This document shows positions 6,100-64,000 of a stretch of 64,000 bases of DNA, piece after piece. The DNA lies in the IMG/VR virus record IMGVR_UViG_3300021964_007119, positions 18,180-82,179 of that record; one strand, written 5' to 3'. The translations under genes and the position numbers were made by a program. The first letter of the stretch is position 1; each line of letters starts with the position of its first letter. A model generated the notes under the pieces. That model ran no database searches. It was not told where the DNA came from and was given only the letters and a program-made list of their open reading frames with translations. The stretch comes from a virus.

Positions 6100-6110
6100 T
6101 ATTTATCCCC

Positions 6111-39893: not shown

Positions 39894-40071
39894 TGTCGTC
39901 CTTTTGTTTAGTGCTCCAAACTCCGTCGTCATAACACACTTTTTTGTGTATTTTTAAATCTTCTCTATCTTCTAATTCTGAATCTATTGTGTCGTAGTAG
40001 TCTTCGCTTTCTCTAATTAATTTTGTAAATGTCTCTCCGCCGTTCCATATTCCTTTCTCGGAATCACTCAT
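39856..40071 (-). CDS. small charged protein
   Basis: 71 residues, acidic middle (SEDYYDTIDSELEDREDLK), overlaps both neighbours. Unknown function. Confidence 0.5.
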   Translation of the reverse strand: MSDSEKGIWNGGETFTKLIRESEDYYDTIDSELEDREDLKIHKKVCYDDGVWSTKQKDDNGRINRTTEKRD

Positions 40072-40711: not shown

Positions 40712-40713
40712 TT

Positions 40714-40926
40714 TTACTTTTTATATTTCTTTTTAAAAGGTTTCTTTTTATATCTTTTTTTAGGTTTTTGTTTTAATAGTTCGTCTTTTAACATTTTTCT
40801 TTGTATTCTTAAACTAATAACTTCATTATCTAAATCACTCATTTTTCCTGATGATACTATTGCTACTGCTAAACTACCACCAATACTACCTATTAATAAA
40901 CCTATTGTAAATAAAATCCATTCCAT
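40714..40926 (-). CDS. membrane protein with Lys-rich tail
   Basis: 70 residues; one membrane span (about 4-25), then a coiled and strongly basic tail (KKRYKKKPFKKKYKK). Could hold DNA or phosphate groups at the membrane. Unknown. Confidence 0.5.
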   Translation of the reverse strand: MEWILFTIGLLIGSIGGSLAVAIVSSGKMSDLDNEVISLRIQRKMLKDELLKQKPKKRYKKKPFKKKYKK

Positions 40927-44632: not shown

Positions 44633-45546
44633 AATTCTAATATACTCCTAAATGCTATTTCTTGACTATCTGTCGTTACACCAGCAACATGCGGTGTTAA
44701 AGTTAAATTTTCATACTTACCACTTTGATACAATTGAAATAATTCTGAGTGGAATGGTGTGTTTTCATTTTGTTCATCTACAATTACATCAGCAGAATAA
44801 TAAATTTCTCTTGACTTTATCAATAAACTTATGTATCTTTCATCAACGACTTCACCTCTTGAAGTATTAATGACCACAAGACCCTTTTTAAAGTCTTTAA
44901 AGGTATCATATGTGATTAAATTTCTACTCGTATCATTTAACCCACAATTAATTGATACAATATCTACATCTTTTAATGATTCAATATTTGGAACTTTATT
45001 TTTTCCTCGTAAAACATTTGGGTCATAGAATTTATAATTCATACCGAAAGTTTCTGCATATTTTGAAACATTTTTACCTATTCTACCATAACCAATAATA
45101 CCAATGGTTTTTCCATATAATTGTTGAGTTCTTAAATTTTCTTCGTTATTTTTTTCTCTCCAATGTTTTGTATTGTTAGTTGCTTCTCTAAACTTTCTCA
45201 TAGCATTCATAATATGTAACCAAGTAAATTCTGATGAAGCTGTTATTTTATCTAATGATTTTCTATCATCTAATAATGAATAAAATTGTATTCCTCTTTT
45301 CTTTAAATAATCTAAATCAATGTGTGTATTACCGGTTGAAGGTGTTGCTACTATTTTTAAGTCTTTACACCACTCGTTATTAAGTGAACTTTTATCATAT
45401 TTAAAATCACTACCAGGATTAGTTATTAATATTTCTGGATAAATACTTTCTTCTAATCCTAAATCAAATAATAAATCATCTTTAATATTAATAAAATCTG
45501 TTGGACAATCTATTTGTATTTTAGTTCGTTCTTTTTTCCAACTCAT
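44614..45546 (-). CDS. D-isomer 2-hydroxyacid dehydrogenase
   Basis: 310 residues. GKTIGIIGYGRIGKNVSKYA near 140-160 is the NAD loop; INTSRGEVVDE near 228 and LTPHVAGVT near 285 (catalytic His) complete the family signature. It would reduce or oxidise a 2-keto acid, for example in side-chain or glycerate-linked sugar synthesis. In the operon it lies next to NeuA-like enzyme. Confidence 0.85.
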   Translation of the reverse strand: MSWKKERTKIQIDCPTDFINIKDDLLFDLGLEESIYPEILITNPGSDFKYDKSSLNNEWCKDLKIVATPSTGNTHIDLDYLKKRGIQFYSLLDDRKSLDKITASSEFTWLHIMNAMRKFREATNNTKHWREKNNEENLRTQQLYGKTIGIIGYGRIGKNVSKYAETFGMNYKFYDPNVLRGKNKVPNIESLKDVDIVSINCGLNDTSRNLITYDTFKDFKKGLVVINTSRGEVVDERYISLLIKSREIYYSADVIVDEQNENTPFHSELFQLYQSGKYENLTLTPHVAGVTTDSQEIAFRSILELCMKSL

Positions 45547-46280
45547 TAACTTCTCTCTATTGCTTCTTTTATGTTTAACATTACTTCTGCTATTCTTAAA
45601 TCTATTTCACTATCTATGTTGATTGAATATTTATCTTCCATTACATAAGGTCTTGAAATTTTTCCGTGTCTTGTTTTTTCGTTCATTAGTGTATCTCTTT
45701 TCATTGAATAGATACCACCATTTCTAATATAACACGGCTCTAAATCTTGTCTTCTACCAGCATCTCCCTCTGGATATTCTGAACAAAAGTCTTCAATCAA
45801 ATCATCATCAGTAATTCTTTTCATTCTAACGGGGTGTTTGTCGGTCATTTGTGTGACTGAAATAACACTATCTGCATCTGTTGTGATTAATTTATTTACA
45901 GCTTCTCGAATGTGGTCTTCGTTTCTTAATGGACACACTACTGGAAGTTCTACTACATAATCATATGTAATTCCTTTTAACTTTTCAATCTCACCAACCG
46001 CCCAATGTAAAGAATCAACTGATAAAACTTCATCTCCTGATAATTCTTCTGGTCTTTTTATTGTATTGACTTCTTCTTGTCTTCCAACTTCTAGTATTTC
46101 ATCTGAATCAGAACTAACCCAAATACTATCAAATACATTACTTTTTTTAGCAGATTCGATAGTCCAAGTCATTAATGGTTTTCCATTAACTTTTCTAATG
46201 TTCTTTCTTGGAACACCTTTTGAACCACCACGAACTTGCAATACACACAAAATTTTATTCTTCTGATAAGTATGATTCAC
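45546..46280 (-). CDS. CMP-nonulosonate cytidylyltransferase (NeuA-like)
   Basis: 244 residues, from a GTG start. The motif VRGGSKGVPRKNIRKVNGKP near 16-35 is the CTP site; DEILEVG, RPEELSGD near 69-80 and INIDSEIDLRIAE near 223-235 (metal Asp) agree with CMP-sialic acid synthases. The reaction is CTP + nonulosonic acid to CMP-sugar. The NeuB-like gene adjacent makes the acid. Overlap 26 nt. Confidence 0.85.
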   Translation of the reverse strand: MNHTYQKNKILCVLQVRGGSKGVPRKNIRKVNGKPLMTWTIESAKKSNVFDSIWVSSDSDEILEVGRQEEVNTIKRPEELSGDEVLSVDSLHWAVGEIEKLKGITYDYVVELPVVCPLRNEDHIREAVNKLITTDADSVISVTQMTDKHPVRMKRITDDDLIEDFCSEYPEGDAGRRQDLEPCYIRNGGIYSMKRDTLMNEKTRHGKISRPYVMEDKYSINIDSEIDLRIAEVMLNIKEAIERS

Positions 46281-47211
46281 TCATTTTCTCCTTTAATTGT
46301 TCTTCGGTAAGAGGCTTTTGTTCAACTTTCATATCCCAACGACCTGTATAATTTTCTCTTGTTTCGGCTTCTATATCTTGATAATCTCTACCTAAAAATT
46401 GACTTGTTTCTTCTCTTAATTTAATGTAGTTATTTAATTCCAACATTTCATCAGGAAGTATTGAGAATTTATTATCTCTACCAGGTAAACTTTTATCTAT
46501 TGTGAAATGTTTTTCAATCCAATCAACACCATATTCTAATGATTGTTTTGCAACTTCAATACCTTCACAATGGTCTGAATAACCTATTTCAAATTTTTCT
46601 AATCCAGGTGTTTGTTCACACAATTCTCTTAACAAATTAATTTTTGGTAAGTTTGCTCTACTTGGTTCACAAGGATAAGACGAAACACAATGCATCAAAA
46701 TAAGTTTTTTATTATATCCACCTACTGATGTAGGGAAATATTTACAAGTGTTTTCTATGTTTTCTCTTATTTCTGAAAACTTTGAAGTTCCGGTTGACAT
46801 AAAAACATTATCAAATACTGAAAAAGTATATTTTAATAAATCTTTATTTCTTGACTCCATACTTGGAATTTTAACGCTTCTATGTTGAAAAGAATTGTGT
46901 CTTCTGTCCGACATCATTAACATTCTCATTCCTTGTTGACTAAAACCTGTGCATAAAAACTTTATACCTACATCTCTACAAATATCTCTTATTTCACTTA
47001 AACTTGTTGGATAACCATTTGCCATTGAAGCCTTTTCATAAATTTCCCTACGACCATCAGTATCCCAAGGCCCAGGTTTTAAATATTTAGGGTCAAAGTA
47101 TTGGAACTTTGCGAATTCAGCACCACTATCTTTAGCGGCTTGAACCATTTCTTTACATAATCCTGCATCATCTATGTAATTAAATCCTATTTCAGCTATT
47201 AATTTCGTCAT
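46255..47211 (-). CDS. N-acetylneuraminate synthase family (NeuB-like), no SAF domain
   Basis: 318 residues from the ATG at 47211 (GAGGAG site). LIAEIGFNYID at the N-terminus, AKFQYFDP near 36, GIKFLCTGFSQQGM near 77-90, MSTGTSKFSEI near 138 and IGYSDHCEGIEVAKQS near 214, EKHFTIDKSLPGRDNKFS near 240, all match the TIM-barrel condensing enzyme that joins PEP to a 6-carbon sugar. The C-terminal antifreeze-like (SAF) domain is not seen; the chain ends with a short helical tail. Overlaps the deacetylase gene. Confidence 0.82.
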   Translation of the reverse strand: MTKLIAEIGFNYIDDAGLCKEMVQAAKDSGAEFAKFQYFDPKYLKPGPWDTDGRREIYEKASMANGYPTSLSEIRDICRDVGIKFLCTGFSQQGMRMLMMSDRRHNSFQHRSVKIPSMESRNKDLLKYTFSVFDNVFMSTGTSKFSEIRENIENTCKYFPTSVGGYNKKLILMHCVSSYPCEPSRANLPKINLLRELCEQTPGLEKFEIGYSDHCEGIEVAKQSLEYGVDWIEKHFTIDKSLPGRDNKFSILPDEMLELNNYIKLREETSQFLGRDYQDIEAETRENYTGRWDMKVEQKPLTEEQLKEKMSESYLSEE

Positions 47212-48145
47212 AATACTCCTCAAATGGAAATGGAATTTCATTAAATCCAACCATTATTCTTTTTAAATTAAAGTTATCTAATTTAGCATCGTTATCACCA
47301 GGCATTGCTGATGGACATATTGCTATGTTTGAATCTTTTAAAAACTGAATTACTTTTTCATTGTAATGTTTTTTCTGTCCTTCTGGATAACTAAACAAAC
47401 TTATTTTTCTATCTAGTTTTTCTTCTAATATTTCTAAACAAGTTGTTATTTCAGTTGCTAATTCTGCGGTTGATAAATAAGACATTATTTCGTGATTGTG
47501 TGTATGTCCGCCAATATCAAACAATAGATTTTCATCAATTTCTTTTATTTGTTCCCAAGAAAGATTTTGTATATCTGGATAATAATAATCCATATCAATA
47601 CCAACAGCTTGAAACTCTTTTTTAAATCCTTGTATAAATTCATCTCTTTTTTTCGGACTACAATTTTTTAAATATCCTTTTACATCTTCTACAAAATTTA
47701 TCTTACCTTCATCAGTTTTTAAATTGTATTCTTTACCATATACATCTAATTTTGTTTTTTCTTCATTGGAATAGTTTACAAAGTAATCAACGATATCAGT
47801 CCAATAAAATCTATTCGTTGGAAATGGTCTACCAACTCCTTTTAAATCATCAACAAATCCTGTTGAAATAAAAAATGTTGCTGGTAAATTATATTTTTTT
47901 AATATTGGAACTGCATTGTGATATAGATTTTCATACGAGTCATCAAAGGTAATTGCTACATCATCTTTTGGTCTGTATTGAATCCAATCAGTTAGTTTGA
48001 CTACTCTTTTGTTTTCACTTAACCACCTCATTTGTCTTTCAAATTCAAACAAATCAATATGTTTTCCATTGTAGTTTAGAAAAGTTCCATCTCTTGGCTC
48101 TTTTTTCCAATCTGTTACTCCGTGATATAATAATATTTTACTCAT
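47192..48145 (-). CDS. polysaccharide deacetylase (NodB-type)
   Basis: 317 residues. TFDDSYENL near 69 (metal Asp), PATFFIS near 89, and GGHTHNHEIM near 195 (His pair) mark the carbohydrate esterase 4 fold. It would remove acetyl groups from N-acetyl sugars in glycan or host cell-wall. No signal peptide, so acts inside the cell on a precursor. Overlaps neighbours. Confidence 0.8.
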   Translation of the reverse strand: MSKILLYHGVTDWKKEPRDGTFLNYNGKHIDLFEFERQMRWLSENKRVVKLTDWIQYRPKDDVAITFDDSYENLYHNAVPILKKYNLPATFFISTGFVDDLKGVGRPFPTNRFYWTDIVDYFVNYSNEEKTKLDVYGKEYNLKTDEGKINFVEDVKGYLKNCSPKKRDEFIQGFKKEFQAVGIDMDYYYPDIQNLSWEQIKEIDENLLFDIGGHTHNHEIMSYLSTAELATEITTCLEILEEKLDRKISLFSYPEGQKKHYNEKVIQFLKDSNIAICPSAMPGDNDAKLDNFNLKRIMVGFNEIPFPFEEYYDEINS

Positions 48146-48872
48146 TGTATAATTTATAATCGTTAATGTATTTAATAAAGATATCCTCTGTTAAATGTTT
48201 TTCTTCTAATGACATTGCTGTGTAGTATTCTCCAAATTCTGTTTGTCTTTCCCCTTTAATCTTACCATCTTTTTGTTTAAATTTTTCCAAAACTTCCAAC
48301 ATCATATTTGTTGCTAATATTGTGGTGTGGTATTTTAAATGATATATTTCATCAACTTTTGTTAGTGAAACTTTTCCTGTTGAAAGAACATCACCGGTGT
48401 CTAAATCCTCATCAACATAATGTATTGCTACCCCAATGTTATCAAAGTCTTCGTTCTTAATAGCCCACAAATCAGAGTCTAATCCTCTATACTTATCAAT
48501 CTGTCCTCTATGAACATTAATTGTTCCCCACTTAGAAGCATTAAAAATATAAGGTTTTACTATACCAGTTCCAAAAGTAATAATTAAATCTGGATTCATT
48601 GACTCAATATATTTTTGTAGGTTTTTATTGTTTACTGAATAAACCTCTACAATTTTCTTTTTTAACTCGTCTGATAAATCATTAGGTGTCCCATCTTCAA
48701 AAAACTTGTCTTCATATTTGTTTTCTAAATTACTATAAAATGGACCTGTTGGATAATCTTTTTTCAAAACTTTGCGTTCATAGATTATACCACAAATGTT
48801 GTGTAGTTCAGCTATCTTATTTATGAAATAAGTGTGATGTTTAGTCGGTGTTGATAGAATCAGAATTTTCAT
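48138..48872 (-). CDS. sugar N-formyltransferase-like (10-formyl-THF type)
   Basis: 244 residues. IITFGTGIVKP near 100 and INVHRGQIDKYRGLDS near 119-135 are the folate site (N-x-H), and the DEDLDTGDVLSTG block near 155-167 holds the catalytic Asp. Such enzymes add formyl groups to 4-amino sugars on dTDP or GDP. It would follow the aminotransferase at 50.2 kb. Preceded by an AT-rich motif and a 35-nt gap, so may begin a transcription unit. Confidence 0.78.
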   Translation of the reverse strand: MKILILSTPTKHHTYFINKIAELHNICGIIYERKVLKKDYPTGPFYSNLENKYEDKFFEDGTPNDLSDELKKKIVEVYSVNNKNLQKYIESMNPDLIITFGTGIVKPYIFNASKWGTINVHRGQIDKYRGLDSDLWAIKNEDFDNIGVAIHYVDEDLDTGDVLSTGKVSLTKVDEIYHLKYHTTILATNMMLEVLEKFKQKDGKIKGERQTEFGEYYTAMSLEEKHLTEDIFIKYINDYKLYNE

Positions 48873-48907: not shown

Positions 48908-50185
48908 CTAATTAAACTTTTTTTTTATTTCGTGTAAGTTTTTTAACGAAGTAATGTTTAAATGAAATATTGAATAAGCCATCTCACCCAATTCTCCACT
49001 ATCAGTTAATATGTCTCCAAGATTAAGTAAAAAATTATACAACTCATTTGTTAATTCAGAACCATCAAATCGAACTACAACTCCATTGTTAATTTCATCA
49101 TCATAATGACCGACTCTTTCTTTCAAAGGTCTTGTTGTATTTTTTTGTTCTCTATGAATATACAAATCTAATTCTCGTTGATTACAATCTGTATAGATAT
49201 TTGAACACCAAGGCTCTAATTGATATAACATTGCTAAATCACAATTTTTAATCTTGAAAGCTATATCATACTTTGGTTGTATAATTGGATACATAAGTGC
49301 ATCGTGTTTAACTACACTACCCCATTTTCTAATAAATTCTCTTGTTGAATTATTCATTAGATTCTGCCATTCTGCTGATTTTTGTGAATGGTCTTTGGTT
49401 AATTTTCCGTGTTGAAATTGTCCACCTCTTGCTGTTAAATGATAAACAAATGAATTCCAAGATTGAATTAATTCCATACCACCCAATACCATACGATTAA
49501 ACAAATCAGAATCTTCTCTTGCTGATTTAAAACGATAATCGTGTCCACCAATTATTTCTAAATCTTTTTTGTGAATTAGCCAAGGAGCGAAACAACCCTC
49601 AGTTGTCTTTTCCCCATATTGTTCTTTACATTTTTCAACATATTCATCAAATCCTTTTTCATCAAAACCTTCTTCAACATCTTGTTCAGGCCACATACCA
49701 AAGTTTTCAACTATTTTTTCTGGACCTTCGGGGTGTAGTGGTGGTTCTATTCTTGTTGAACAAACTACTACTCCTCGTTTCCAATGTTTAAACGCGTGAT
49801 AGTCAGCATCTTTACCTAACATCATATCGGCGTGAAATATCATACCAATATCTGTTGGTGCATTATAAATAAGATAATCATACGCCTCTCCAATACCATA
49901 CAAACCATCTCTTTCGTTTAACTTGACGATTGTGTTTTCGTCTTTGTTTTCCATTAACCACTCGTAACATTTATCTTCATTAGAATCAACCAAAATATGT
50001 ATGTAGTGGTCTTTTCTAAATGCATTCTTTCTAATACTTTCTATGGCTACTTTTACATATCTCAAATTATTTTTACTTGGAATACAAAAAGTTATTCTTG
50101 GCATATATCTTTCTTTTTTCAAATGATGTGGTGGATTACCAAATTGGTGTTTTACTTTTCGTTTGTGTTGTTTACTTTTTGCCAT
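48908..50185 (-). CDS. family 2 glycosyltransferase with basic N-terminus
   Basis: 425 residues. The first 25 residues are basic (SKQHKRKVKHQ). The GT-A domain starts at MPRITFCIPSKNNLRYVKVAI, with LVDSNED near 65 and HADMM near 118 (DxD-like). The end about 300-425 is another domain. A lone large transferase, possibly attaching a sugar to a protein. Overlaps the aminotransferase by 14 nt. Confidence 0.75.
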   Translation of the reverse strand: MAKSKQHKRKVKHQFGNPPHHLKKERYMPRITFCIPSKNNLRYVKVAIESIRKNAFRKDHYIHILVDSNEDKCYEWLMENKDENTIVKLNERDGLYGIGEAYDYLIYNAPTDIGMIFHADMMLGKDADYHAFKHWKRGVVVCSTRIEPPLHPEGPEKIVENFGMWPEQDVEEGFDEKGFDEYVEKCKEQYGEKTTEGCFAPWLIHKKDLEIIGGHDYRFKSAREDSDLFNRMVLGGMELIQSWNSFVYHLTARGGQFQHGKLTKDHSQKSAEWQNLMNNSTREFIRKWGSVVKHDALMYPIIQPKYDIAFKIKNCDLAMLYQLEPWCSNIYTDCNQRELDLYIHREQKNTTRPLKERVGHYDDEINNGVVVRFDGSELTNELYNFLLNLGDILTDSGELGEMAYSIFHLNITSLKNLHEIKKKFN

Positions 50186-51407
50186 TGTCTGCTCTTCCCA
50201 ATAACCCTTTTGTTATTGATTTGTCTTTATCATATTCTGGAAGTATATCTGCTATTTCAGTTACTACTCTTCTTACATCTTCTTTTGACATATGTAAATG
50301 TAATGGTAATGATATTAGTTCTGAACTAATTTCGTGAGCGTTTTTACAAGTTCCGTGTGCGTAATTATACATTGGATATTGTGTGTTGTCTAAGTAATGA
50401 ACACCACAATAGATATCTCTTTTTGATAATTCTTCCATTACAAAATCTCTCAACCCTTTTTTAATTCTGATTGGATACAAATGTCTTGAATGAGTTCCCT
50501 CAACCAATGTATTTTTTACCGATTGGATTGATTCTAAATTAAGTATATTAAAATAATAATCATAAGTTTCAGAAAGTAAATTTCGGTATTGGTTATCTTC
50601 ATTTAAATATTTTAGTTGAACTAATCCAATAGCTCCCATAAGTGCATTTCCGTGATACTTATATCCAACATTTGGCACATCATACTTCCAATTATAAGTT
50701 CCTTTGTTGTATCTATCGTATGTAGATTTATCAATACCCAACCAAGATAATTGTCTCGCGAGTTTGTCATCTTCTTCGTCTTTGAAACAAACCATACCAC
50801 TATCTGCTGTTGGTAAGTTCTTTACCGCTTGAAAACTAAATACCGAAACATCAGCATCCCAACCAACTTGTGATTGTGTCATCGCTTGATATTGTGGATA
50901 AACTCTCATTGTTTGTGTTCCTGCTAAATGAGCCGCGTCTAAAATCAATGGTATATTTTGTAAATTACAAATCTCTCTAATCTTATCATATTGTCCAATA
51001 TTACCACCAATCCCAACAAACATTACTGCTCTTGTTTTGTCTGTGATATTACTCAGAACTGAATCTGGGTCTAAACACAAGCTATCATCAACATCAGCGA
51101 ATACTGGTTTTAAGTTTTCATACATAATGGCGTGATTGGTAGAAACAAATGTTAATGGTGTTGTGATAATTTCATCTCCGTCTTCCCAACCATATTTTTC
51201 TTTAAACACTTTAAGTGCTAAATGTAATCCTGCTGTTGCTGATTGTAGAAAATGAGCGTGTTCAAGGTCTGCATAGGTTTTCCACTTTTCTTCAAACTCA
51301 ATAGCTTTTCCACCCATACCAGTCCAACTCGTATCTAAACACTCTTGAATTTCTTTTAGAATTTCTTCTGTTCTGTATTTTGGTTTTAAAACTTGTATCT
51401 TATCCAT
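50172..51407 (-). CDS. DegT/DnrJ-type sugar aminotransferase
   Basis: 411 residues. SATAGLHLAL near 56-65 is the PLP phosphate site, ILDAAH near 155 includes the pyridine-N Asp, and SFQAVKNL near 191 contains the Schiff-base Lys. It converts a keto-sugar nucleotide to a 4-amino sugar. With GMD at 53.2 kb it could make GDP-perosamine; with RmlA/B, a dTDP amino sugar. Overlaps GroES by one base. Confidence 0.88.
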   Translation of the reverse strand: MDKIQVLKPKYRTEEILKEIQECLDTSWTGMGGKAIEFEEKWKTYADLEHAHFLQSATAGLHLALKVFKEKYGWEDGDEIITTPLTFVSTNHAIMYENLKPVFADVDDSLCLDPDSVLSNITDKTRAVMFVGIGGNIGQYDKIREICNLQNIPLILDAAHLAGTQTMRVYPQYQAMTQSQVGWDADVSVFSFQAVKNLPTADSGMVCFKDEEDDKLARQLSWLGIDKSTYDRYNKGTYNWKYDVPNVGYKYHGNALMGAIGLVQLKYLNEDNQYRNLLSETYDYYFNILNLESIQSVKNTLVEGTHSRHLYPIRIKKGLRDFVMEELSKRDIYCGVHYLDNTQYPMYNYAHGTCKNAHEISSELISLPLHLHMSKEDVRRVVTEIADILPEYDKDKSITKGLLGRADNGKK

Positions 51408-51661
51408 TATCCCACCACAGCTAACACTTCTTTTTCAGACATTATTAATACATCTTGTCCTTCGTGATTTACTTCTGTTCCTGTATATTTAGGATACAAA
51501 ATTAAATCATCTTTTTTAATTGTTTCACAATCACCAACTGCTAATACTTTACCTTCTTGCGGTTTGTCTTGAGCTGTATCTGGTAATATAATTCCACTCT
51601 CTGTTTTTTCTGATTGTGTCGTTGGTTCTACAACAACTCTATCTCCTAATGGTTTAATCAT
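51407..51661 (-). CDS. groES: co-chaperonin GroES, short form
   Basis: 84 residues. IKPLGDRVVVEP at 2-13 and SGIILPD near 22-28 (mobile loop) are the standard GroES blocks, and VLIMSEKEVLAVV ends it. Most GroES are 94-97 residues; about ten residues are missing, mainly around the middle roof loop. Together with GroEL at the window edge it would form the folding cage for large virion or sugar enzymes. It lies between RmlA and the aminotransferase, an odd place. Confidence 0.92.
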   Translation of the reverse strand: MIKPLGDRVVVEPTTQSEKTESGIILPDTAQDKPQEGKVLAVGDCETIKKDDLILYPKYTGTEVNHEGQDVLIMSEKEVLAVVG

Positions 51662-52377
51662 TTTTTCTCCTTTTGACTAACTAATTTATTTGCTTGAACT
51701 AAACTATCTGGTGTTCCGGCGTCTGACCAAAATCCTTTTAATTCACTATGTGTTGTTTTTCCTCTATCAATATACCAATTAATTAAATCAACCACTTCTA
51801 ACTCACCTCGTTCTGATGGTTTTAGTGTGTCGATAACGCTCCAAACTTCATCATTAAACATATAAAGTCCTGTAACTGCATAATTAGACATTGGTTTTTC
51901 TGGTTTTTCTTCTACTTTTACTAAGTGTCTGTCCATACCTTGAAATACTGGAACTCCAAACCTCCCAGGGTCTGGAACTTCTTTTAAAAATATATGACAC
52001 CAACTATCGTAATAATTTAATTTTAAATCACTAAAGTCATCTTCAAAAATATTATCACCCAAACAAACAAAAACATTATCTCTCCCTGCAAATTCTTTAC
52101 ACAATCCTAAAGCTTGAGCGATACCACCAGGTTTTTCTTGAACTCTGTAAGTAATATCTACTCCATATTCACCACCACTTCCTAATTGGTTCATTATTTG
52201 TCCACAATGTTCTTTACCAGAAACAATACAAATTTCTTTACAACCAATTTGTTTTAGTGTTTGTAATGGATAATAAATCATTGGTTTATCGTAAACAGGT
52301 AATAATGATTTGTTGAATATTTTTGTTAATGGATACAACCTTGAGCCGTGTCCACCTGCTAGTATTATACCCTTCAT
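51658..52377 (-). CDS. rmlA: glucose-1-phosphate thymidylyltransferase (RmlA-like)
   Basis: 239 residues from the ATG at 52377. GIILAGGHGSRLYPLTK near 3-19 is the nucleotide loop, KPMIYYPL near 31, GDNIFEDDF near 107 and VEEKPEKP near 160. Length slightly below the usual 290, so C-terminal helices are short. Makes dTDP-glucose from dTTP and Glc-1-P. It feeds RmlB at 58.9 kb. Confidence 0.88.
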   Translation of the reverse strand: MKGIILAGGHGSRLYPLTKIFNKSLLPVYDKPMIYYPLQTLKQIGCKEICIVSGKEHCGQIMNQLGSGGEYGVDITYRVQEKPGGIAQALGLCKEFAGRDNVFVCLGDNIFEDDFSDLKLNYYDSWCHIFLKEVPDPGRFGVPVFQGMDRHLVKVEEKPEKPMSNYAVTGLYMFNDEVWSVIDTLKPSERGELEVVDLINWYIDRGKTTHSELKGFWSDAGTPDSLVQANKLVSQKEKK

Positions 52378-53183
52378 TCCATTCTCTCCCCAATAATACA
52401 AGCATCTGGTAATTGTCTAAATGGTGGTTCTTCGTATTTCAATCTAACTTGACCAGCTCCACATTCAGTCATATATTTCGAAAAACGATATTGGTCTGAT
52501 AAATATTTCATACCTTGTTGTCCAAATACTTTTGTGAATTTGTATCCGTTTAGATATTCCGAAGTATTTCCATTAGGGTCTCTTGAATCACTACCATCAG
52601 GCATTTCAATCAATGGAAAGTTTACATAATCAAATCCACCAACTTCTCTAATGTATTTCATTTTAGAAGCAAAGAAACTTCCTCTCATTGACCAACATTG
52701 TAAAGGTTCTTCATAAAGATGTTTGTTTTCTTCTTTTGCATAATCTCTCCAATTGTATCCGTTTTTTAACCAATAAGATAATCTTGCTTCTTCTAATGGA
52801 TTAATATCCCACGGGTAATTCCACCCATTTCCAATTACTTTTGTAGTTGGATTTAAATTGAAATGGTCTACACAAACATTAATGAAAGACCAATCGTGAA
52901 CAACCATATCATCTTGAATAAAGAATAAAAAAGTATCATCATCTAAATCCATATCATTTAGAACTTTATCATAAGCTCCCCACTCTAATCCAATATTTTC
53001 ATATTCTTTGTAATCAAATTTTTCTGTGATTATTTTTGGTGGTGTCTTATGACAGGTCCACATCACATCTAAATTTTCGTTTTCTTCTTTTAGTTCGTAT
53101 AGTGCATCAATGAAATCTGTTTGGTTTTTCTTTCCGTCCCATTCATCATACCACCAACCACATACTATAAATTGTATTTTCAT
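52374..53183 (-). CDS. glycosyltransferase-like protein (GT-A)
   Basis: 269 residues from the ATG at 53183 (ATGA overlap with GMD). FLFFIQDDMVVHDW near 80-95 contains DD metal site. Substrate unknown. Probably transfers a sugar in the glycan operon, as the neighbours do. Confidence 0.6.
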   Translation of the reverse strand: MKIQFIVCGWWYDEWDGKKNQTDFIDALYELKEENENLDVMWTCHKTPPKIITEKFDYKEYENIGLEWGAYDKVLNDMDLDDDTFLFFIQDDMVVHDWSFINVCVDHFNLNPTTKVIGNGWNYPWDINPLEEARLSYWLKNGYNWRDYAKEENKHLYEEPLQCWSMRGSFFASKMKYIREVGGFDYVNFPLIEMPDGSDSRDPNGNTSEYLNGYKFTKVFGQQGMKYLSDQYRFSKYMTECGAGQVRLKYEEPPFRQLPDACIIGERME

Positions 53184-54166
53184 GCTTGTTTCCAACCTTT
53201 CGGGTCTAATAATGCTAAATCACTTTCAACCATATTTTTTACTAATTGTTTAAAATCTGTTTTAGGTTTCCAACCTAATTCATATTTTGCTTTACTTGCA
53301 TCACCTCGTAAAACATCAACTTCTGCGGGTCTCATAAATCTTGGGTCTTGTTTAACATATTTTTCCCAATTAGAAATACCAACCACATCAAAAGCAGAAT
53401 CTAAAAATTCTCTAATAGTGTGTGTTTCTCCTGTTGCTATCACAAAGTCATCTGGTTTATCTTGTTGTAACATTAACCACATTGACTCAACATAGTCAGG
53501 TGCATAACCCCAATCTCTTTTTGCTTCTAAATTACCTAATGTTATGTGGTCTGATAATCCGTGAACTATTTGAGCAACTCCATCAGAAATCTTTCTCGTA
53601 ACAAATTGGTGTCCTCTTCTTTCAGATTCGTGATTAAATAAAATACCACAAGTATTAAACATATCATAAGATTCACGATAGTTTTTAGTAATCCAATGAG
53701 CGTATAATTTAGAAACACCATAAGGACTTCTTGGATAAAAAGGTGTTCTTTCTGTTGCTGGATTTTCTATCATACGACCAAATAGTTCTGATGTTGATGC
53801 TTGATAAAATCTTGTATCCATATTTAATGTTCTGATTGCATCTAATATTCTTAATGAACCTAACCCTGTTACATTTGAAGTTTGTTCTGGTGTGTTCCAA
53901 CTTTCTCCAACAAAAGATTGAGAACCTAAATTATAAACTTCATCTGGTTGAGCAGTTGATAGTGCTGAAAGTAAAGAAGTGCTATCAGTTAAATCTCCCG
54001 TAATAAACTCAAAGTTTTCATTTGATTCTAAATGTTTTGTATTGGTTCTGTTTTTCAATGACGAATGTCTTTCCATACCATAAACTTTATAACCTTTTTC
54101 TAATAAGAAATCGGCTAAATGGCTTCCGTCCATACCATTTATTCCTGTTATTAACGCTCTTTTCAT
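53180..54166 (-). CDS. gmd: GDP-mannose 4,6-dehydratase
   Basis: 328 residues. ALITGINGMDGSHLADFL near 4-21 (NADP loop), YNLGSQSFVGESW near 77-89, STSELFG near 121, YPRSPYGVSKLYAHW near 143 (catalytic YxxxK), and NHESERRG near 176, match GMD strongly. Produces GDP-4-keto-6-deoxy-mannose, a precursor of fucose, rhamnose or perosamine. No partner epimerase/reductase (WcaG) is seen in the window, so the aminotransferase route is more likely. Confidence 0.92.
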   Translation of the reverse strand: MKRALITGINGMDGSHLADFLLEKGYKVYGMERHSSLKNRTNTKHLESNENFEFITGDLTDSTSLLSALSTAQPDEVYNLGSQSFVGESWNTPEQTSNVTGLGSLRILDAIRTLNMDTRFYQASTSELFGRMIENPATERTPFYPRSPYGVSKLYAHWITKNYRESYDMFNTCGILFNHESERRGHQFVTRKISDGVAQIVHGLSDHITLGNLEAKRDWGYAPDYVESMWLMLQQDKPDDFVIATGETHTIREFLDSAFDVVGISNWEKYVKQDPRFMRPAEVDVLRGDASKAKYELGWKPKTDFKQLVKNMVESDLALLDPKGWKQA

Positions 54167-55645: not shown

Positions 55646-56418
55646 AACTCTACTCTCGGTATTGATTTATCTGCTGGATTTCTATCAGAACATATCTTAA
55701 AGTCTATCCCTTTTTCTTTTAACCAATTGTGTATAAATGGAACACTATTTGTAACTAACTCTATTTCTTTCTTTGTCATAGGTGTCGGTGCATATTTAAT
55801 GTTTTGTTTCCCCTCATAAAAATGGTCTTGCCATTGTTCTTCGTTTTCATTATCACTATCAAATTTTGAAATATCTCCGATATCCCAACCGACCGTAATA
55901 ATTTCTTTACAACCTAAAAACATTGCTAATGGAATAGCCATTTCATACATTAAACCAGGCCCCCACGCTCTATCATAAGTTTTGTCCATTGTAAAATCAT
56001 CAAAGTCCAATCTAGCGGCTTGTGTATTGTCCATTGTTCCGTGATTTCTTATAACTGGAAACATAACATCTACATTAAAACCATTTTCTAAAATCATTTG
56101 TGGGTGATATTGTTCAAATACTTCCCACGCTACTATTGTTTCATTTAACCATTGATATGGTTCAAAATTTGTGAAATTTAAAATGTGAAAATCACAAATT
56201 TCCTTTAATAATAAATAGGATTGTTTAATCGTAAATACCAATTTATTTTCTAATTTTGACTTTAAATATTCGGGTTCATAGTTCTTTAAAGAAGGCCCTG
56301 CTGATACAATATAACAAGTTTCCCCGTGATATCTATCTTTTAAACTTTCTATTCTTTCTGGAACACTTTCGTATTTCTGTAAATCTTGTTTTACGCTTCT
56401 TGTAATACTTTCTATCAT
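55642..56418 (-). CDS. DUF115/MptE-like protein
   Basis: 258 residues. ETCYIVSAGPSLKNYEPEYL near 31-50 is the DUF115 signature; family members transfer or make sugar-linked groups, including the Maf flagellin glycosyltransferases. Here it may glycosylate a protein with a nonulosonate. Overlaps by 4 nt with both neighbours. Confidence 0.7.
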   Translation of the reverse strand: MIESITRSVKQDLQKYESVPERIESLKDRYHGETCYIVSAGPSLKNYEPEYLKSKLENKLVFTIKQSYLLLKEICDFHILNFTNFEPYQWLNETIVAWEVFEQYHPQMILENGFNVDVMFPVIRNHGTMDNTQAARLDFDDFTMDKTYDRAWGPGLMYEMAIPLAMFLGCKEIITVGWDIGDISKFDSDNENEEQWQDHFYEGKQNIKYAPTPMTKKEIELVTNSVPFIHNWLKEKGIDFKICSDRNPADKSIPRVEL

Positions 56419-57149
56419 CTTTTATCCTCAAATTCATATCCAAAAAAGTTTAAATCTTTGTTAAACATTTTAGAAACTAACCAAATTGACTCGTCATCAT
56501 AGTAATGTGAATAGTGTTTGTGTTCTGATGTATTTCTTTGTGGAAGTTTTGGTGGTGTGTATCCTAATTTCTTAAACATTGCTTCCCACTCCTCATTTAA
56601 ATTTTCTTGACGAAGTATTGTATCTGTCATTAATCTACCACCTGTCAATGGATTGGATAAAAAATCAACTTGATTAAGATATTCTAAATGACTTCTTAAA
56701 TAATTTCTACCCATAAATCCTCTGTCTTTTGATTTATAAGCCCAATAAGAATTGAAATAAGCATCACTACACATTCTTGCAATGCCCTCATCCGTTGTCC
56801 CTTTCATAATAGGACTTTTTATCCAACGATTAAAATCCCACTCTGTTCCGTCTGGACCCAAATTGGTATCAAATAAATTTGCGTGAATATATAAATCCCC
56901 TTGCTTTTTTCTAAATGAATATAAAGATACCATTCTTTCAAAAGGATTTCTTACAATAGAAAACTTGTGATAAGAATTATAAATATCATCATTGGTTGTA
57001 TACCTAACATCAATGGCTAATGCAGTTGACACATTTTTGTGTGGAAACGGGTGTGTTGATTTATCGATTCCAATAGCTCTTCTAACACTAACACCAGCAC
57101 ATTTTGGTATATGAAAATAAATTAATTTATATTTATGACTTTCGTTCAT
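56415..57149 (-). CDS. sulfotransferase (Sulfotransfer_2 type)
   Basis: 244 residues. The YFHIPKCAGVSVRRAIG block near 11-27 is the PAPS 5'-phosphosulfate loop, and KFSIVRNPFERMVSLYSF near 62-79 is the 3'-phosphate site. It would add sulfate to a sugar or protein. No PAPS-making genes were seen nearby, so host PAPS must be used. Overlaps the fusion gene by 17 nt. Confidence 0.8.
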   Translation of the reverse strand: MNESHKYKLIYFHIPKCAGVSVRRAIGIDKSTHPFPHKNVSTALAIDVRYTTNDDIYNSYHKFSIVRNPFERMVSLYSFRKKQGDLYIHANLFDTNLGPDGTEWDFNRWIKSPIMKGTTDEGIARMCSDAYFNSYWAYKSKDRGFMGRNYLRSHLEYLNQVDFLSNPLTGGRLMTDTILRQENLNEEWEAMFKKLGYTPPKLPQRNTSEHKHYSHYYDDESIWLVSKMFNKDLNFFGYEFEDKR

Positions 57150-58863
57150 TTAATATCTCCAATACTTTATCAACATCTTCTGGAATATCAACGGCTTGTG
57201 TTGTTCCGTATGTTTCCAACATTTTTACATTTATTCCTAATTCTAAAAACCTTAAAATTTCAATATCTTCTGACCACTCTATTTGAGTTTTTCCGTGTTT
57301 TAATCCAAACTGATAAAACTTATCTAACTCATCTTTTGTAAATGCATAAATACAAACTTGTTTATGAACTAATTTTGAGTGTCCTTCTTTTGTTCCAGGT
57401 ATTGCACTTCTTGACATATAAACCAAGTTATTGTTGAAGTTAGACACAACTTTTGGAATATTTCTGTTTGTTGCTTCTGATGAATCAAATCTACTCATAC
57501 AATTAACAACACTATCCATATTTTCTAATTTACAATCAATAACTTTTTGTATATCTTCTGGGTCTAACAATGGTTCATCACCTTGAATATTTACAATAAT
57601 ATCACTATCTATTTCTTGTGATGCTTCACAAACTCTATCAGTTCCAGTTAAACAATTATCAGAAGTCAAAATAACTTTGTAATCATAATCATCAACTACT
57701 TTTGCTATTCTTTCGTCTTCTGTTGCAATATAAATGTTTTCTTTTGGAACGACTTGTGATGCTATATCAGCCACTCTAATAATCATTGGTGTTCCGTCAA
57801 TATCTACAATTGGTTTTCCAGGAAATCTACTTGACTTGTATCTTGCTGGTATCACAATACTTACTGACTTTTCTGATAATGGTTTTATCTCGTCTTGATT
57901 GTAAAATTCCTTACCACCACTAAACGATAATTCTTCTAATTTGTCTTGTATTTCGGAATCTGAAATGTGGTAGGTTTGTAATTCTTGTGGATAAGAAGGG
58001 TGTATTTCATTAATCCCAGAATACATATAACTTGGACTCCAACCCCACTTTGATTTTTGTTTCATTGGTTCAAATTTTCTTTGAACTAAGTCTAATAAAT
58101 TTTTTGTAGGTTTTTTCTTCCACATTAAATATTGTTCTATTCTTAAATTACCAGCACCTCTACCCATACCGGTAATTGTTCCGTCAACAATGTCCACCCC
58201 AAATTTTTCTGCTTGATATGAATTAGAAAAGGCTAATCCTAAATTATTATGTGGATGAAAACCTAACCATTTATCCCAGTCATCACAAGTCGCTCTAAAT
58301 TTTTTAAATAATTTTGTAAGTTTTTCTCCTTGCAATGAACCCAATGAATCTGCTACATATATCATATCAGAACTAGATTTACCAATCTTTTGAAGTGCTA
58401 ATCCTACTTCAAGATTAGTCAATGTGGCTACTTTCATCAGATTTAATGCTGTGTAATATCCTAAATCAGAAATTATTTCTAACATTTCTAATGATTTGTC
58501 TAATGTTTTATAATTAGTTGCTATTCTACAAAGTGTAAATGGTGATTTATCTTTTGGTTTAATAACATCAAGTAATAATCTTTTATTTACTTTGTTGTCC
58601 TCTATGAAATCTTTAGCATCAATCATAAATGCAAGTTTAGATTGTTTACCAAAAACTTCAACATCTTTTAAAAGGTTTTCAATAAACTTATCATTACATT
58701 TTCTAAATCTACCACCGGGTAATGGCGATTTATAACCTAATTCAATGTAATCTACTTCTGAAAAGTTTAAACACTTGACCATTTCTTTAACCAAGTCATC
58801 ATCAAACTCCCAATTAGTATAATAACCCCCGTCTCTTAATGTGCAATCTAATATTAAACTCAT
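57133..58863 (-). CDS. fusion: HMGL-like aldolase + KdsB-like CMP-sugar synthetase
   Basis: 576 residues. Residues 1-325: DCTLRDGGYYTNW at 6-18, FHPHNNLGLAF near 202-212 (metal His pair) and DGTITGMGRGAGN near 225, the pattern of HMG-CoA lyase/DmpG-like aldolases. Residues about 332-576: IVIPARYKSSRFPGKP near 333-350 and NIQGDEPLLDPEDI near 425, the CTP-binding KdsB pattern. The two could make a keto-deoxy sugar acid from pyruvate and activate it to CMP form. Substrate unknown. Confidence 0.82.
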   Translation of the reverse strand: MSLILDCTLRDGGYYTNWEFDDDLVKEMVKCLNFSEVDYIELGYKSPLPGGRFRKCNDKFIENLLKDVEVFGKQSKLAFMIDAKDFIEDNKVNKRLLLDVIKPKDKSPFTLCRIATNYKTLDKSLEMLEIISDLGYYTALNLMKVATLTNLEVGLALQKIGKSSSDMIYVADSLGSLQGEKLTKLFKKFRATCDDWDKWLGFHPHNNLGLAFSNSYQAEKFGVDIVDGTITGMGRGAGNLRIEQYLMWKKKPTKNLLDLVQRKFEPMKQKSKWGWSPSYMYSGINEIHPSYPQELQTYHISDSEIQDKLEELSFSGGKEFYNQDEIKPLSEKSVSIVIPARYKSSRFPGKPIVDIDGTPMIIRVADIASQVVPKENIYIATEDERIAKVVDDYDYKVILTSDNCLTGTDRVCEASQEIDSDIIVNIQGDEPLLDPEDIQKVIDCKLENMDSVVNCMSRFDSSEATNRNIPKVVSNFNNNLVYMSRSAIPGTKEGHSKLVHKQVCIYAFTKDELDKFYQFGLKHGKTQIEWSEDIEILRFLELGINVKMLETYGTTQAVDIPEDVDKVLEILNERKS

Positions 58864-59756
58864 TGAAATGTATCCTCTAAATATTTTTCTAAATCCATTG
58901 TTGGATAATAACCCAACTCTTGTTCTAATTTATAACAATCCAACCAATATGCTTTATCGTGTCCAAGTCTATCGTCAACTTGTTGAAAGTTAACTCCACC
59001 CTCAGTCAACATAGTTACTTTATCAACAATATCAACATTACACCAAATGTCACCTGTTCCGACATTGTAAATACCATAATGATTTGAACTATGAGTTAAC
59101 AAGTCAATAATTCTTATATTATCTCCAACCCAAATCCACTCTCGTCTATTCAATCCGTCTCCGTATAACGGGAAAGCCATTTGTTCTTTATAACACTTAA
59201 AGAGCTTGGGAAGAAACTTTTCTTCGTGTTGTCTATCACCATAATTATTACAACTGCGTGTAATTAGATAAGGTAATTCGTATGTTTTACCGGCCGCAAG
59301 CACAATTTGGTCAGCCGCAGCTTTTGTGGCGGAATAATAAGAACTTGGTTTTAAAACATCTGTTTCAATTGAAGGTTCTTTAACATCACCATAAACTTCG
59401 TCAGTTGAAATCTGAACAAACTTCTTAAAGTTTTTCATTTGTCTACATAATTCTAGTAAGTTAAATGTTCCATTAACATTTGTTTTGACAAATGGACTTC
59501 CGTCATCAATAGAATTATCTACATGCGATTCAGCTGCAAAGTTTACACAATATTGTATTTCACCAATATCATCATAAGTTAAATCATTGATATCTTTTTT
59601 GATTAGTTTAGCATTACCTGGTAAATAATCAATGTTAGAAGCGTATGTAAGTTTGTCCACCACTATCACTTCCATATCTACATAACCCATTTGGAAATCT
59701 GTAAAGTGTGAACCAATAAATCCACACCCACCTGTTATTAACATTCTTTCTTTCAT
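58860..59756 (-). CDS. rmlB: dTDP-glucose 4,6-dehydratase (RmlB-like)
   Basis: 298 residues, slightly shorter than RmlB (about 340). TGGCGFIGSHF near 8-18, NFAAESHVDNS near 71-81, STDEVYGDV near 116-124, and YSATKAAADQIV near 141 (YxxxK). Makes dTDP-4-keto-6-deoxyglucose. Product could go to the cupin isomerase at 27 kb and the aminotransferase. Confidence 0.9.
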   Translation of the reverse strand: MKERMLITGGCGFIGSHFTDFQMGYVDMEVIVVDKLTYASNIDYLPGNAKLIKKDINDLTYDDIGEIQYCVNFAAESHVDNSIDDGSPFVKTNVNGTFNLLELCRQMKNFKKFVQISTDEVYGDVKEPSIETDVLKPSSYYSATKAAADQIVLAAGKTYELPYLITRSCNNYGDRQHEEKFLPKLFKCYKEQMAFPLYGDGLNRREWIWVGDNIRIIDLLTHSSNHYGIYNVGTGDIWCNVDIVDKVTMLTEGGVNFQQVDDRLGHDKAYWLDCYKLEQELGYYPTMDLEKYLEDTFQ

Positions 59757-60670
59757 AATCTCTCACTCAACTTTCGTAGTTCTTCTGGATAATATTTGTT
59801 AGCATTATCTCTGTATCTTTGTTTAAATTCATCTGAATTTGTTTTGTCTGCTATGTAATTTACATAAGGATTTAAATCTCTATACTTTCTGTTTTCACAA
59901 ACCAACATATTATCTAAAGTATATTGTTTTATATCATATCCTTTTTGTTGCATCATACGACAACCTTCTTCTACAAATGTATCATCTAATCCGTATGAAC
60001 TTAATGAATCTGGAACATCAATTAATTTTAATAAATTAGAACTAAACACATTAAACCAACCACCACCAAATTTAAATCCATTTAATTCTTTAATTCCAAT
60101 TGTAGATGAATATTCAAAAACTTCTGAATCTAATTTGAACGGGTCATAGTTCAACCAAATTTTAGAATCATAACCCATAGGAATATATCTTTCATTTGAA
60201 ATTATATTCCAACTTTCGTCCCACAATCTTAACAATTGTGAATTTAAAATATAATATTTATTATTAATTTGTTCCATTGCTCTAAACAAATAAGATAAAT
60301 TAAACATTGAAAAATAAACATCAGTATCTAAATACATAAAGTTTTTAGGATTATTTTCTCTAATACTATTTCTTCTCTTATCGTTTATTCCTAAACATCT
60401 ATTACTATCGTTTATTTCAAAAATATTTTTAGAAGTCCAATCACATCTTTGTTTCATCATCTCAAATTTATCGGCGAAAAACTCTTTTGGTAATTGACTT
60501 GTTTCCCAATCGGTTAATTTATCTGATAGGTTTAGGGTAAAGTCTAAAATAACTTCATCATTTGATTCTAAAAAATGTGATGACCTTTTTAAGTGATTAA
60601 CTATTCTGTCTAGTTCATCTATTTCTCTTGGTAAACAATGTAATATTATATGTAAATCATTCGTCTTCAA
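59753..60670 (-). CDS. glycosyltransferase-like protein
   Basis: 305 residues. MYLDTDVYFS near 111 has the DxD motif; FKFGGGWFNVFSSN near 198 resembles a binding loop. No family assigned with certainty. Overlaps RmlB by 4 nt. Confidence 0.55.
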   Translation of the reverse strand: MKTNDLHIILHCLPREIDELDRIVNHLKRSSHFLESNDEVILDFTLNLSDKLTDWETSQLPKEFFADKFEMMKQRCDWTSKNIFEINDSNRCLGINDKRRNSIRENNPKNFMYLDTDVYFSMFNLSYLFRAMEQINNKYYILNSQLLRLWDESWNIISNERYIPMGYDSKIWLNYDPFKLDSEVFEYSSTIGIKELNGFKFGGGWFNVFSSNLLKLIDVPDSLSSYGLDDTFVEEGCRMMQQKGYDIKQYTLDNMLVCENRKYRDLNPYVNYIADKTNSDEFKQRYRDNANKYYPEELRKLSERL

Positions 60671-61289
60671 GTCTTATAACCTTTTTTTGTTTAACTAAAT
60701 AATCTAAATAATCTTTTTCTTTTTGTAAATTATGGTCTGTTCTACCACTTCTCCACGCGTGTTTTGATGTTCTAGTTTCTTTTGTATCATAGTAATGAAT
60801 ATATTTATACTCTTTACTATGTCCATCAAATCCGTGAATATAAATTTGGTCATAACTATTAGTCAAAAACTGAATAGCTATTAGACCACTAGTTGGCCAT
60901 GCTGGTGAAAAGTTTACGACTGAATTAATATCATCTTCTAATTGACTTGGTAGTAATTGTATATCTTCATATTGATTACAAAATTTTAAAACTCGTTGAC
61001 ACTCATCAGTTTGTAAATTAATATTGTGTTTAAATTTTGGACTAATAAAATAAACATAACCGAACTCGTTCCAACGACTAGAACCCTCAATTTTTTCATT
61101 TTCATTTTCTAACCATTGAACACCATTATCTGCTAAAAACCAAGCATCAACTCTTGTCCCAACATTTTTTTCATAACTCTTAGTTTTGAATCTATTAATT
61201 CTGTAAACTAAGTCGAAGTCATTATCTATTTTTTCACCAAATTCATTGTCCATAACTGATGAACCATTTCCCATTAATAATATTTTCAT
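60657..61289 (-). CDS. GT29 sialyltransferase-like protein
   Basis: 210 residues from the ATG at 61289. LLMGNGSSVMDNEFGEKID near 4-22 and VYRINRFKTKSYEKNVGTR near 28-46, then a His at GFDGHSKEYKYIHYYD near 158, follow the sialyl motifs of GT29. These enzymes move sialic acid from CMP-sialic acid. Fits with NeuA/NeuB-like genes in the same operon. Shorter than animal GT29, close to bacterial/viral relatives. Confidence 0.72.
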   Translation of the reverse strand: MKILLMGNGSSVMDNEFGEKIDNDFDLVYRINRFKTKSYEKNVGTRVDAWFLADNGVQWLENENEKIEGSSRWNEFGYVYFISPKFKHNINLQTDECQRVLKFCNQYEDIQLLPSQLEDDINSVVNFSPAWPTSGLIAIQFLTNSYDQIYIHGFDGHSKEYKYIHYYDTKETRTSKHAWRSGRTDHNLQKEKDYLDYLVKQKKVIRLEDE

Positions 61290-62041
61290 TTTACAACACA
61301 CCACCTTTCAAATGAATCTTCTGTGATATATTTTTCAAATCTATCAACTGGTTGATTAAAGAAAAATTCATTTACGGCTATTCTTGCACCAGGATATTTT
61401 AACGAATAATATTCGTCAAAAATTATTGAACCACCTTGTTTTACATTTTTGTAAAGGTTACTCAAAACATCTAAATAACTTTGGTATAAATCACAATCTA
61501 AATGTAATATGTCTATTTCTTTGTTAAAATTTTCTGTGGTTTCTGAAAATGTTCCTTTATGATATTTGACAAATAAATCTGAAAAGTGATTTTCAAATGT
61601 TAAAACATTCCCTATATTTGAAAAGTATTCCTCTGATAAATGATTTAGTCCTTTGAAATTATTTGTTCTTTCTTTTGCTTTATCAAAATGTTCTTGGTCT
61701 ATAGCTCCATTTTCAAAAAGGTCTATAAATTGTGCGGGTTCGTCATTTGAATTAGAAACTACATCACTAGGAAATCCACCGAAAGTATCAAATCCGTGAA
61801 ACTCAATATCATAATTATATTTTTTACAATACAAAAGTACTGGAACTAATGTCCAACCTTTGAATACTCCACATTGAACAAATACTCCTGATTTTATTTC
61901 TTTTATTTTTTGTAAAAGTAATAAATTATTATAACCAACACTCCATTCTTCAGTATTTACAATATCTAGTAATTCATTGGCTACTGGTTTTATTTCTTCA
62001 AAGTCTTGGACTACATCATTATCTATTTGATATGTTTTCAT
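61286..62041 (-). CDS. TylF/MycF-type O-methyltransferase
   Basis: 251 residues. VFVQCGVFKGWTLVPVLL near 52-70 is the AdoMet loop; EFHGFDTFGGFPSD near 81-93; DILHLDCDLYQS near 180 and IIFDEYYSLKYPGAR near 205 (metal/catalytic Asp). It would O-methylate a sugar. Overlaps both neighbours (4 and 23 nt). Confidence 0.82.
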   Translation of the reverse strand: MKTYQIDNDVVQDFEEIKPVANELLDIVNTEEWSVGYNNLLLLQKIKEIKSGVFVQCGVFKGWTLVPVLLYCKKYNYDIEFHGFDTFGGFPSDVVSNSNDEPAQFIDLFENGAIDQEHFDKAKERTNNFKGLNHLSEEYFSNIGNVLTFENHFSDLFVKYHKGTFSETTENFNKEIDILHLDCDLYQSYLDVLSNLYKNVKQGGSIIFDEYYSLKYPGARIAVNEFFFNQPVDRFEKYITEDSFERWCVVK

Positions 62042-63401: not shown

Positions 63402-64000
63402 TTACATCATCATTCCGGGATTCATAGGTGGTTGTGTTGAATCAGATTTTTCTTCTGGTTTATCTGTAATGGCTACTTCCGTAGTTAATAACAATCCAGA
63501 TATTGATGAAGCATTTTCAACGGCTACTCTGGAAACTTTAGCTGGGTCAATAATACCCGACTCAAACATATTAACATATTCTTCGTTTCTTGCGTCATAA
63601 CCAAAATCATCTTCACTCTCAAGAACTTTCTGAACAACGATTGATGATTCCACACCAGCGTTTGAACATATTTGTCTGATTGGCCCTTCCAATGCTCTTT
63701 TCATAATATCAACACCGACTTGTAAACTTGGTGTTGTTTCTATGTTTTCTAAGTCTTTACTTGCTCTAAGTAATACAACTCCACCACCTGTTACAATTCC
63801 TTCTTCAACAGCGGCTCTTGTTGCGTGTAAAGCATCATCAACTCTATCTTTCTTTTCTTTCATTTCAACTTCGGTAGCGGCTCCAACATTTAATACTGCT
63901 ACACCACCACTTAATTTTGCTAGTCGTTCTTGTAGTTTTTCTTTATCGTAGTCTGATTTACTTTTTTCAATATGAACTCTTATTTCATTAACTCTGTTTG
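63402..64000 (-). CDS. groEL: chaperonin GroEL, N-terminal part missing
   Basis: The C-terminal ~200 residues of GroEL are seen: [38 protein letters not shown] then TGGGV, and the equatorial C-terminus ending GMMM. The start is outside the window. A phage-coded full GroEL with GroES suggests its own folding machine, perhaps for large structural proteins or the glycan enzymes. Confidence 0.92.

Follow-up and report, generated by a model that had tools for sequence, protein, structure and literature searches.

The 64,000-nucleotide stretch of DNA analysed here (the window) belongs to an 82,179-base record of a marine virus of bacteria, and between 42 and 62 kb it carries a long series of sugar genes on the minus strand. 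Within this series an intact open reading frame (ORF) of 576 residues with an ATG start joins an HMGL-like aldolase to a KdsB-like cytidylyltransferase, as the initial annotation had recognized, and both Pfam domains score above their cut-offs (Table 1). The ends of the ORF overlap both adjoining genes by a few bases, in an operon-like arrangement.

Table 1. The aldolase–KdsB fusion gene, its motifs and selected neighbours, in window coordinates
Feature	Position	Strand	Basis
Aldolase–KdsB fusion gene	57133..58863	−	ORF and domain matches; 38 other contigs with the same fusion
HMGL-like (DRE-TIM) aldolase domain, residues 4–312	57928..58854	−	Profile, structure matches, model
Arg10-Asp11 of TLRDGGY motif (substrate Arg, metal Asp), then Tyr14	58831..58836	−	Alignment
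His203-x-His205 metal ligands	58249..58257	−	Alignment
His288-Pro289-x-Tyr291-x-Gln293 motif	57985..58002	−	Alignment
Linker, residues 313–332	57868..57927	−	pLDDT about 61–72 around residues 271–330
KdsB-like cytidylyltransferase domain, residues 333–574	57142..57867	−	Pfam, NCBIfam, alignment, model
GTDR motif of KdsB, residues 407–410	57634..57645	−	Invariant in 25 fused proteins
QGDEP motif, metal Asp429, residues 427–431	57571..57585	−	Invariant; equivalent to Asp95 of A. aeolicus KdsB
KQVCIYAF signature, residues 501–508	57340..57363	−	Canonical KdsB: H-[IL]-G-x-Y
AVD motif, second metal Asp559, residues 557–559	57187..57195	−	Invariant; equivalent to Asp219 of A. aeolicus KdsB
NAD-dependent sugar epimerase/dehydratase	58860..59756	−	5′ neighbour of fusion gene, same operon
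Sulfotransferase family 2	56415..57149	−	3′ neighbour of fusion gene, same operon
GT29 sialyltransferase-like gene	60657..61304	−	PF00777, 51.5 bits against a cut-off of 23

The phage has most of a modified-sugar pathway, comprising a formyltransferase, a DegT aminotransferase, a sugar-1-phosphate nucleotidyltransferase and a GDP-mannose dehydratase-like gene (48138–48872, 50172–52401 and 53180–54166). A NeuB-like PEP synthase and a NeuA-like CMP-synthetase are paired at 45546–47250, separate from the fusion, so that, besides the system described here, the phage probably has a route to a nonulosonic acid. On its profile match, the GT29 sialyltransferase-like gene is a candidate CMP-sugar-dependent transferase. 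By eye, we also recognized, at the edge of the window (63402–63998), a C-terminal end resembling that of GroEL and a small-heat-shock-like ORF in the remainder of the record (L151, 8402–8872).

The N-terminal domain of the fusion belongs to the HMGL-like (DRE-TIM) metallolyases, scoring 74.6 bits against the PF00682 cut-off of 29 and retaining the Asp and His-x-His metal ligands. The metal motifs had been called intact from the outset, and Asp11, His203 and His205 are indeed present and near-universal in the alignment. The closest solved structure to residues 4–289 is 3dxi, the putative aldolase BVU_2661 of Bacteroides vulgatus. Pyruvate aldolases are the nearest characterized relatives by sequence, and a fold search shows that isopropylmalate and homocitrate synthases share the fold. 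The domain scores far below the equivalog model for 4-hydroxy-2-oxovalerate aldolase (TIGR03217; 83.2 bits against a cut-off of 286) and lacks the catalytic histidine of that enzyme: where DmpG (1nvm), a 4-hydroxy-2-oxovalerate aldolase, has His21, this domain and all aligned CMP-linked aldolases have Tyr14, suggesting that the aldolase chemistry may differ. The Tyr-x-Gln of the His288-Pro289-x-Tyr291-x-Gln293 motif is likewise typical of the CMP-linked aldolase subfamily.

The C-terminal domain matches PF02348 (CTP_transf_3) with 132.7 bits against a cut-off of 22.6 and passes two NCBIfam KdsB subfamily models (NF009905, 277.5 bits against 255; NF003952, 237.4 bits against 193). It narrowly misses the kdsB equivalog TIGR00466 (143.1 against 155.2 bits); most aldolase-linked KdsB copies of bacteria also score below this cut-off. 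Its closest solved structure is the CMP-Kdo synthetase 1gq9 (residues 335–571), and it is 34% identical to KpsU. The catalytic residues of KdsB, whose roles have been described together with those of the metal ligands Asp95 and Asp219 of the A. aeolicus enzyme (PMC3149649), are all present (IPAR, Lys, GTDR, the QGDEP Asp and the AVD Asp) and are invariant in 25 fused proteins. The canonical His-x-Gly-x-Tyr motif is replaced by KQVCIYAF.

An AlphaFold model of the fusion, for which 25 fused homologues were supplied as input, has a mean pLDDT of 85.6. One half resembles KpsU/KdsB, with a TM-score of about 0.9 on the target, and the other resembles 3dxi/DmpG-type aldolases. The pTM of 0.56 makes the relative placement of the two domains unsure.

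The aldolase profile matched 60 loci when scanned against viral sequences. Both domains occur in one ORF in 37 of these, corresponding to about 24 distinct sequences, as well as in the window and in a marine Bacteroidetes single-cell contig (L011). The search for further fusions proposed in the initial annotation has thus been answered, and the recurrence of the one-ORF architecture in 38 other contigs indicates that it is not an assembly artefact. L011 is the only bacterial fusion that we saw; tblastn of the phage collection gave single-domain matches only, and PHROGs contains no family covering the fusion. Fused proteins (25 compared) are 44–57% identical to the window protein, and the set is invariant at Arg10, Asp11, His203 and His205 in the aldolase and at Pro339, Arg341, Lys350, Arg410, Asp429 and Asp559 in the KdsB-like domain. 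In the KdsB tree the fused phage domains form one clade (SH-aLRT 95). The aldolase tree likewise unites the phage proteins (support 97), in a clade that includes four unfused phage aldolases. The sole unfused member of the KdsB clade, L004, is a close relative (71% identity) in which the KdsB domain stands without an aldolase. Although L004 might be taken as a sign of a degenerate or opportunistic fusion without joint function, it is nested inside the fused clade, suggesting secondary loss of the aldolase. In addition, the fusion persists, its active sites invariant, among widely diverged proteins, and the two genes are kept adjacent in bacteria, leaving a merely fortuitous fusion with a negligible chance of being correct.

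Bacterial aldolases of the same subfamily, recognized by Tyr14 and Tyr-x-Gln, are proteins of 510–546 residues with an extra C-terminal domain. Among the genomes sampled, they occur in 7 of 369 from Gammaproteobacteria, 8 of 395 from Bacteroidota and 20 of 197 from the SAR11 family; carriers in culture include Nitrincola tapanii and Pseudidiomarina planktonica. Among 32 bacterial loci, which were search-selected with repeated near relatives (SAR11 and Bacteroidota) so that the fractions are not unbiased estimates, 31 have a KdsB- or NeuA-type CMP-synthetase no more than four genes downstream of the aldolase (30 by neighbourhood analysis and L199 by six-frame search) and 21 have a HAD phosphatase nearby. 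By contrast, outgroup aldolases, nearly all of which have Leu14, are accompanied by a CMP-synthetase within six genes in 0 of 58 cases and by a HAD gene in 2 of 58. This difference is the strongest evidence that the aldolase and the CMP-synthetase work in one pathway. It also speaks against the possibility, raised with the original proposal, that the domains might prove to be separate and functionally unrelated in all relatives. Because the aldolase subfamily is accompanied interchangeably by KdsB and NeuA types, what these loci have in common is CMP activation.

The extra C-terminal domain of the bacterial aldolases is conserved and about 200 residues long (L013, 9000–9602, with equivalents in about 30 loci). 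It has no Pfam match, and among PDB entries it matches only an MptE-like pterin pyrophosphokinase, weakly (8.7e-4); a relationship to the GT29-like or MptE-like proteins of the window was considered and found no profile support. The matches listed from a fold search with the whole bacterial aldolase protein cover the aldolase part only.

In two of the bacterial glycan islands, PEP-mutase genes are found at a distance of about 7 kb from the aldolase (L015, 9438–10736; G1192:C1:118283–119056). Phosphonate pathways include both HMGL-family and cytidylyltransferase enzymes, and a scheme in which a phosphonomethylmalate-synthase-like reaction precedes the transfer of CMP to a phosphonate would accommodate this pairing as well as the PEP mutases of these contigs (G036 and G1192). 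However, all 31 phage records lack PEP mutase, the CMP domain has the KdsB fold and KdsB motifs, and the partner genes belong to sugar pathways. We dropped the phosphonate idea after the PEP mutase search of the phage records and regard it as very improbable.

The CMP-synthetase linked to the aldolase is a paralogue of canonical KdsB. KdsA scores above its cut-off in 22 of 28 carrier genomes, and most carrier genomes have another, higher-scoring canonical KdsB. Canonical copies have the H-[IL]-G-x-Y motif, whereas aldolase-linked and fused copies have Q-V-C-[IV]-Y, preceded by K/R; some of the linked copies, such as L018, L035, L055, L129, L132 and L146, depart from the exact motif. The KdsB tree separates the two groups with an SH-aLRT of 91, under the 95 mark. 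The changed motif, the separation in the tree and the retention of KdsA and canonical KdsB together suggest that the linked KdsB most likely activates a different acid. The KdsB fold, the identity to KpsU and the two KdsB subfamily models passed would also be compatible with the aldolase simply substituting for KdsA in making ordinary Kdo, with which the phage would remodel host LPS. That the linked KdsB differs at His-x-Gly and mostly scores under the kdsB cut-off speaks against ordinary Kdo as the product, and with KdsA already in 22 of the 28 host genomes another route to Kdo would be superfluous; we consider this explanation improbable.

No KdsA-type synthase (PF00793) was found in the record containing the window or in 30 of 31 phage records, which may be fragments. 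The single exception among the 31 tested, G015 (locus L108), encodes a KdsA/DAHP-synthase-type enzyme at 40045–40752. The earlier suggestion that a different acid is made, bypassing the PEP-dependent synthase, gains partial support from the linkage of the enzymes, the scarcity of KdsA matches and the altered motif of the KdsB paralogue. The acid could alternatively come from host KdsA.

Of the 39 fused loci, L011 included, 31 have a HAD gene no more than about seven genes away from the fusion. Because the bacterial modules usually include a HAD phosphatase, the aldolase product is probably phosphorylated, with a separate enzyme acting between the steps of the two domains. The original idea that the acid is both made and activated on one chain is consistent with the fusion itself, but would probably have to be relaxed to allow for this additional enzyme. 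For the present phage the phosphate step can be assigned only tentatively, since the small phage HAD is unspecific, also accompanying other phage aldolases that have no CMP-synthetase (L141), and a search of the 82-kb record detected no HAD relative. At locus L132, a protein encoded two genes before an aldolase–KdsB pair joins a SIS-like isomerase domain to a small HAD phosphatase (5581–6552). It was the only match in a SIS_2 search of the phage records, and would provide the isomerase and phosphatase of a Kdo-like route.

Five further phage loci (L137, L141, L144, L147 and L149) contain a different aldolase module, a cluster comprising an epimerase, a related aldolase, an ORF of about 600 residues, a protein of about 450 residues and a HAD gene. 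The ORF of about 600 residues resembles TPP-dependent enzymes, as judged by eye from L141 and L147. The related aldolases form a sister group, and this ORF adjoins them in place of a CMP-synthetase. At four bacterial loci (L195, L196, L202 and L207), an HpcH/HpaI aldolase gene directly follows the HMGL-like aldolase, and a NeuA-type CMP-synthetase comes next or soon after; the HpcH/HpaI aldolase is additional there, so the HMGL-like one may do another step. Taken together with Tyr14, these loci and the TPP-like sister module suggest that the family could catalyse related but different condensations. The HMGL-like domain might then use another 2-oxo acid, or carry out an acyl-CoA Claisen or retro-aldol reaction, to provide a precursor from which an HpcH/HpaI aldolase, NeuB or host KdsA forms the acid. 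The fold shared with isopropylmalate and homocitrate synthases and the presence of NeuB and NeuA in the window would fit such a scheme. Against it, the HpcH/HpaI partner is absent nearby in 28 of the 32 bacterial loci and absent from all 31 phage records, and KdsA was found in a single one of those records. Moreover, fusion to a CMP-synthetase suggests consecutive or nearly consecutive steps, and the nearest characterized relatives are pyruvate aldolases. We judge precursor synthesis to be unlikely, while giving it some weight.

We favour, as reasonably likely, the reading that the fusion is a bifunctional enzyme of surface-glycan synthesis in which the aldolase makes a 3-deoxy-2-ulosonic acid, probably not Kdo, and the KdsB domain activates this product with CMP. 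The N-terminal metal-dependent aldolase would condense a 2-oxo acid, most likely pyruvate, with an aldose, probably an aldose phosphate. The phosphate would be removed by a HAD phosphatase, which is encoded nearby in most relatives and is possibly supplied by the host here. The C-terminal domain would then transfer CMP from CTP to the anomeric hydroxyl of the acid, and a CMP-dependent glycosyltransferase, perhaps the GT29-like neighbour, would attach the sugar to a glycan. Fusing a reversible aldol step to a CTP-consuming one could pull the equilibrium of the former. In this best reading, the steps would run parallel to the Kdo route, except that an aldolase would take the role of the PEP-dependent KdsA.

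The phage fusion and the bacterial neighbour genes point to an undescribed route to an unusual surface sugar. It is possible, though we propose it with less confidence, that an HMGL-like aldolase, a HAD phosphatase and a KdsB/NeuA-type enzyme constitute a widespread, undescribed class of pathway to a CMP-3-deoxy-ulosonic acid that is neither Kdo nor a known nonulosonic acid, present in some SAR11, Gammaproteobacteria and Bacteroidota and condensed by marine phages into one fused enzyme. We found no description of an HMGL-like aldolase with a CMP-synthetase in the open-licence literature, which does not prove that none exists. To our knowledge, the known pathways to CMP-activated ulosonic acids all form the acid by a PEP-dependent synthase of the KdsA or NeuB family. 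A conserved aldolase/CMP-synthetase/phosphatase module would, if confirmed, represent a second solution to acid synthesis and probably a new surface sugar, one that may be common in the ocean given the frequency of the aldolase subfamily in SAR11-family genomes. A phage-borne fused version would imply remodelling of host or virion glycans, and it offers a single compact protein in which to assay the idea.

The system resembles the canonical Kdo pathway (KdsD, KdsA, KdsC and KdsB) in its KdsB-like CMP activation, intact two-metal site and sugar-acid logic, and the HAD phosphatase of most aldolase/CMP-synthetase modules is comparable to KdsC. It differs in having an HMGL-like aldolase where the Kdo pathway uses the PEP-dependent KdsA, and in a KdsB that belongs to a paralogous branch, carries Gln-Val-Cys for His-x-Gly and shares one chain with the aldolase. 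The NeuB/NeuA, PseI/PseF and LegI/LegF pathways similarly form an acid and then activate it with CMP, and the NeuA-type enzymes adjoining the aldolase in many bacteria recall these nonulosonic acid pathways, in which a PEP-dependent NeuB-type synthase stands in the place of the aldolase. With the 4-hydroxy-2-oxovalerate aldolases DmpG and BphI (PF00682), the N-terminal domain shares the TIM barrel, the RD metal/substrate motif and the HxH ligands, but it has Tyr14 for the catalytic His21, no aldehyde dehydrogenase partner was seen adjoining it, and it lies far from the TIGR03217 cut-off. BVU_2661, the nearest solved structure, is of the same Tyr14 subfamily and groups in the tree with the two-domain aldolases of the Bacteroidota; the deposited structure covers the N-terminal domain only, the full protein being longer.
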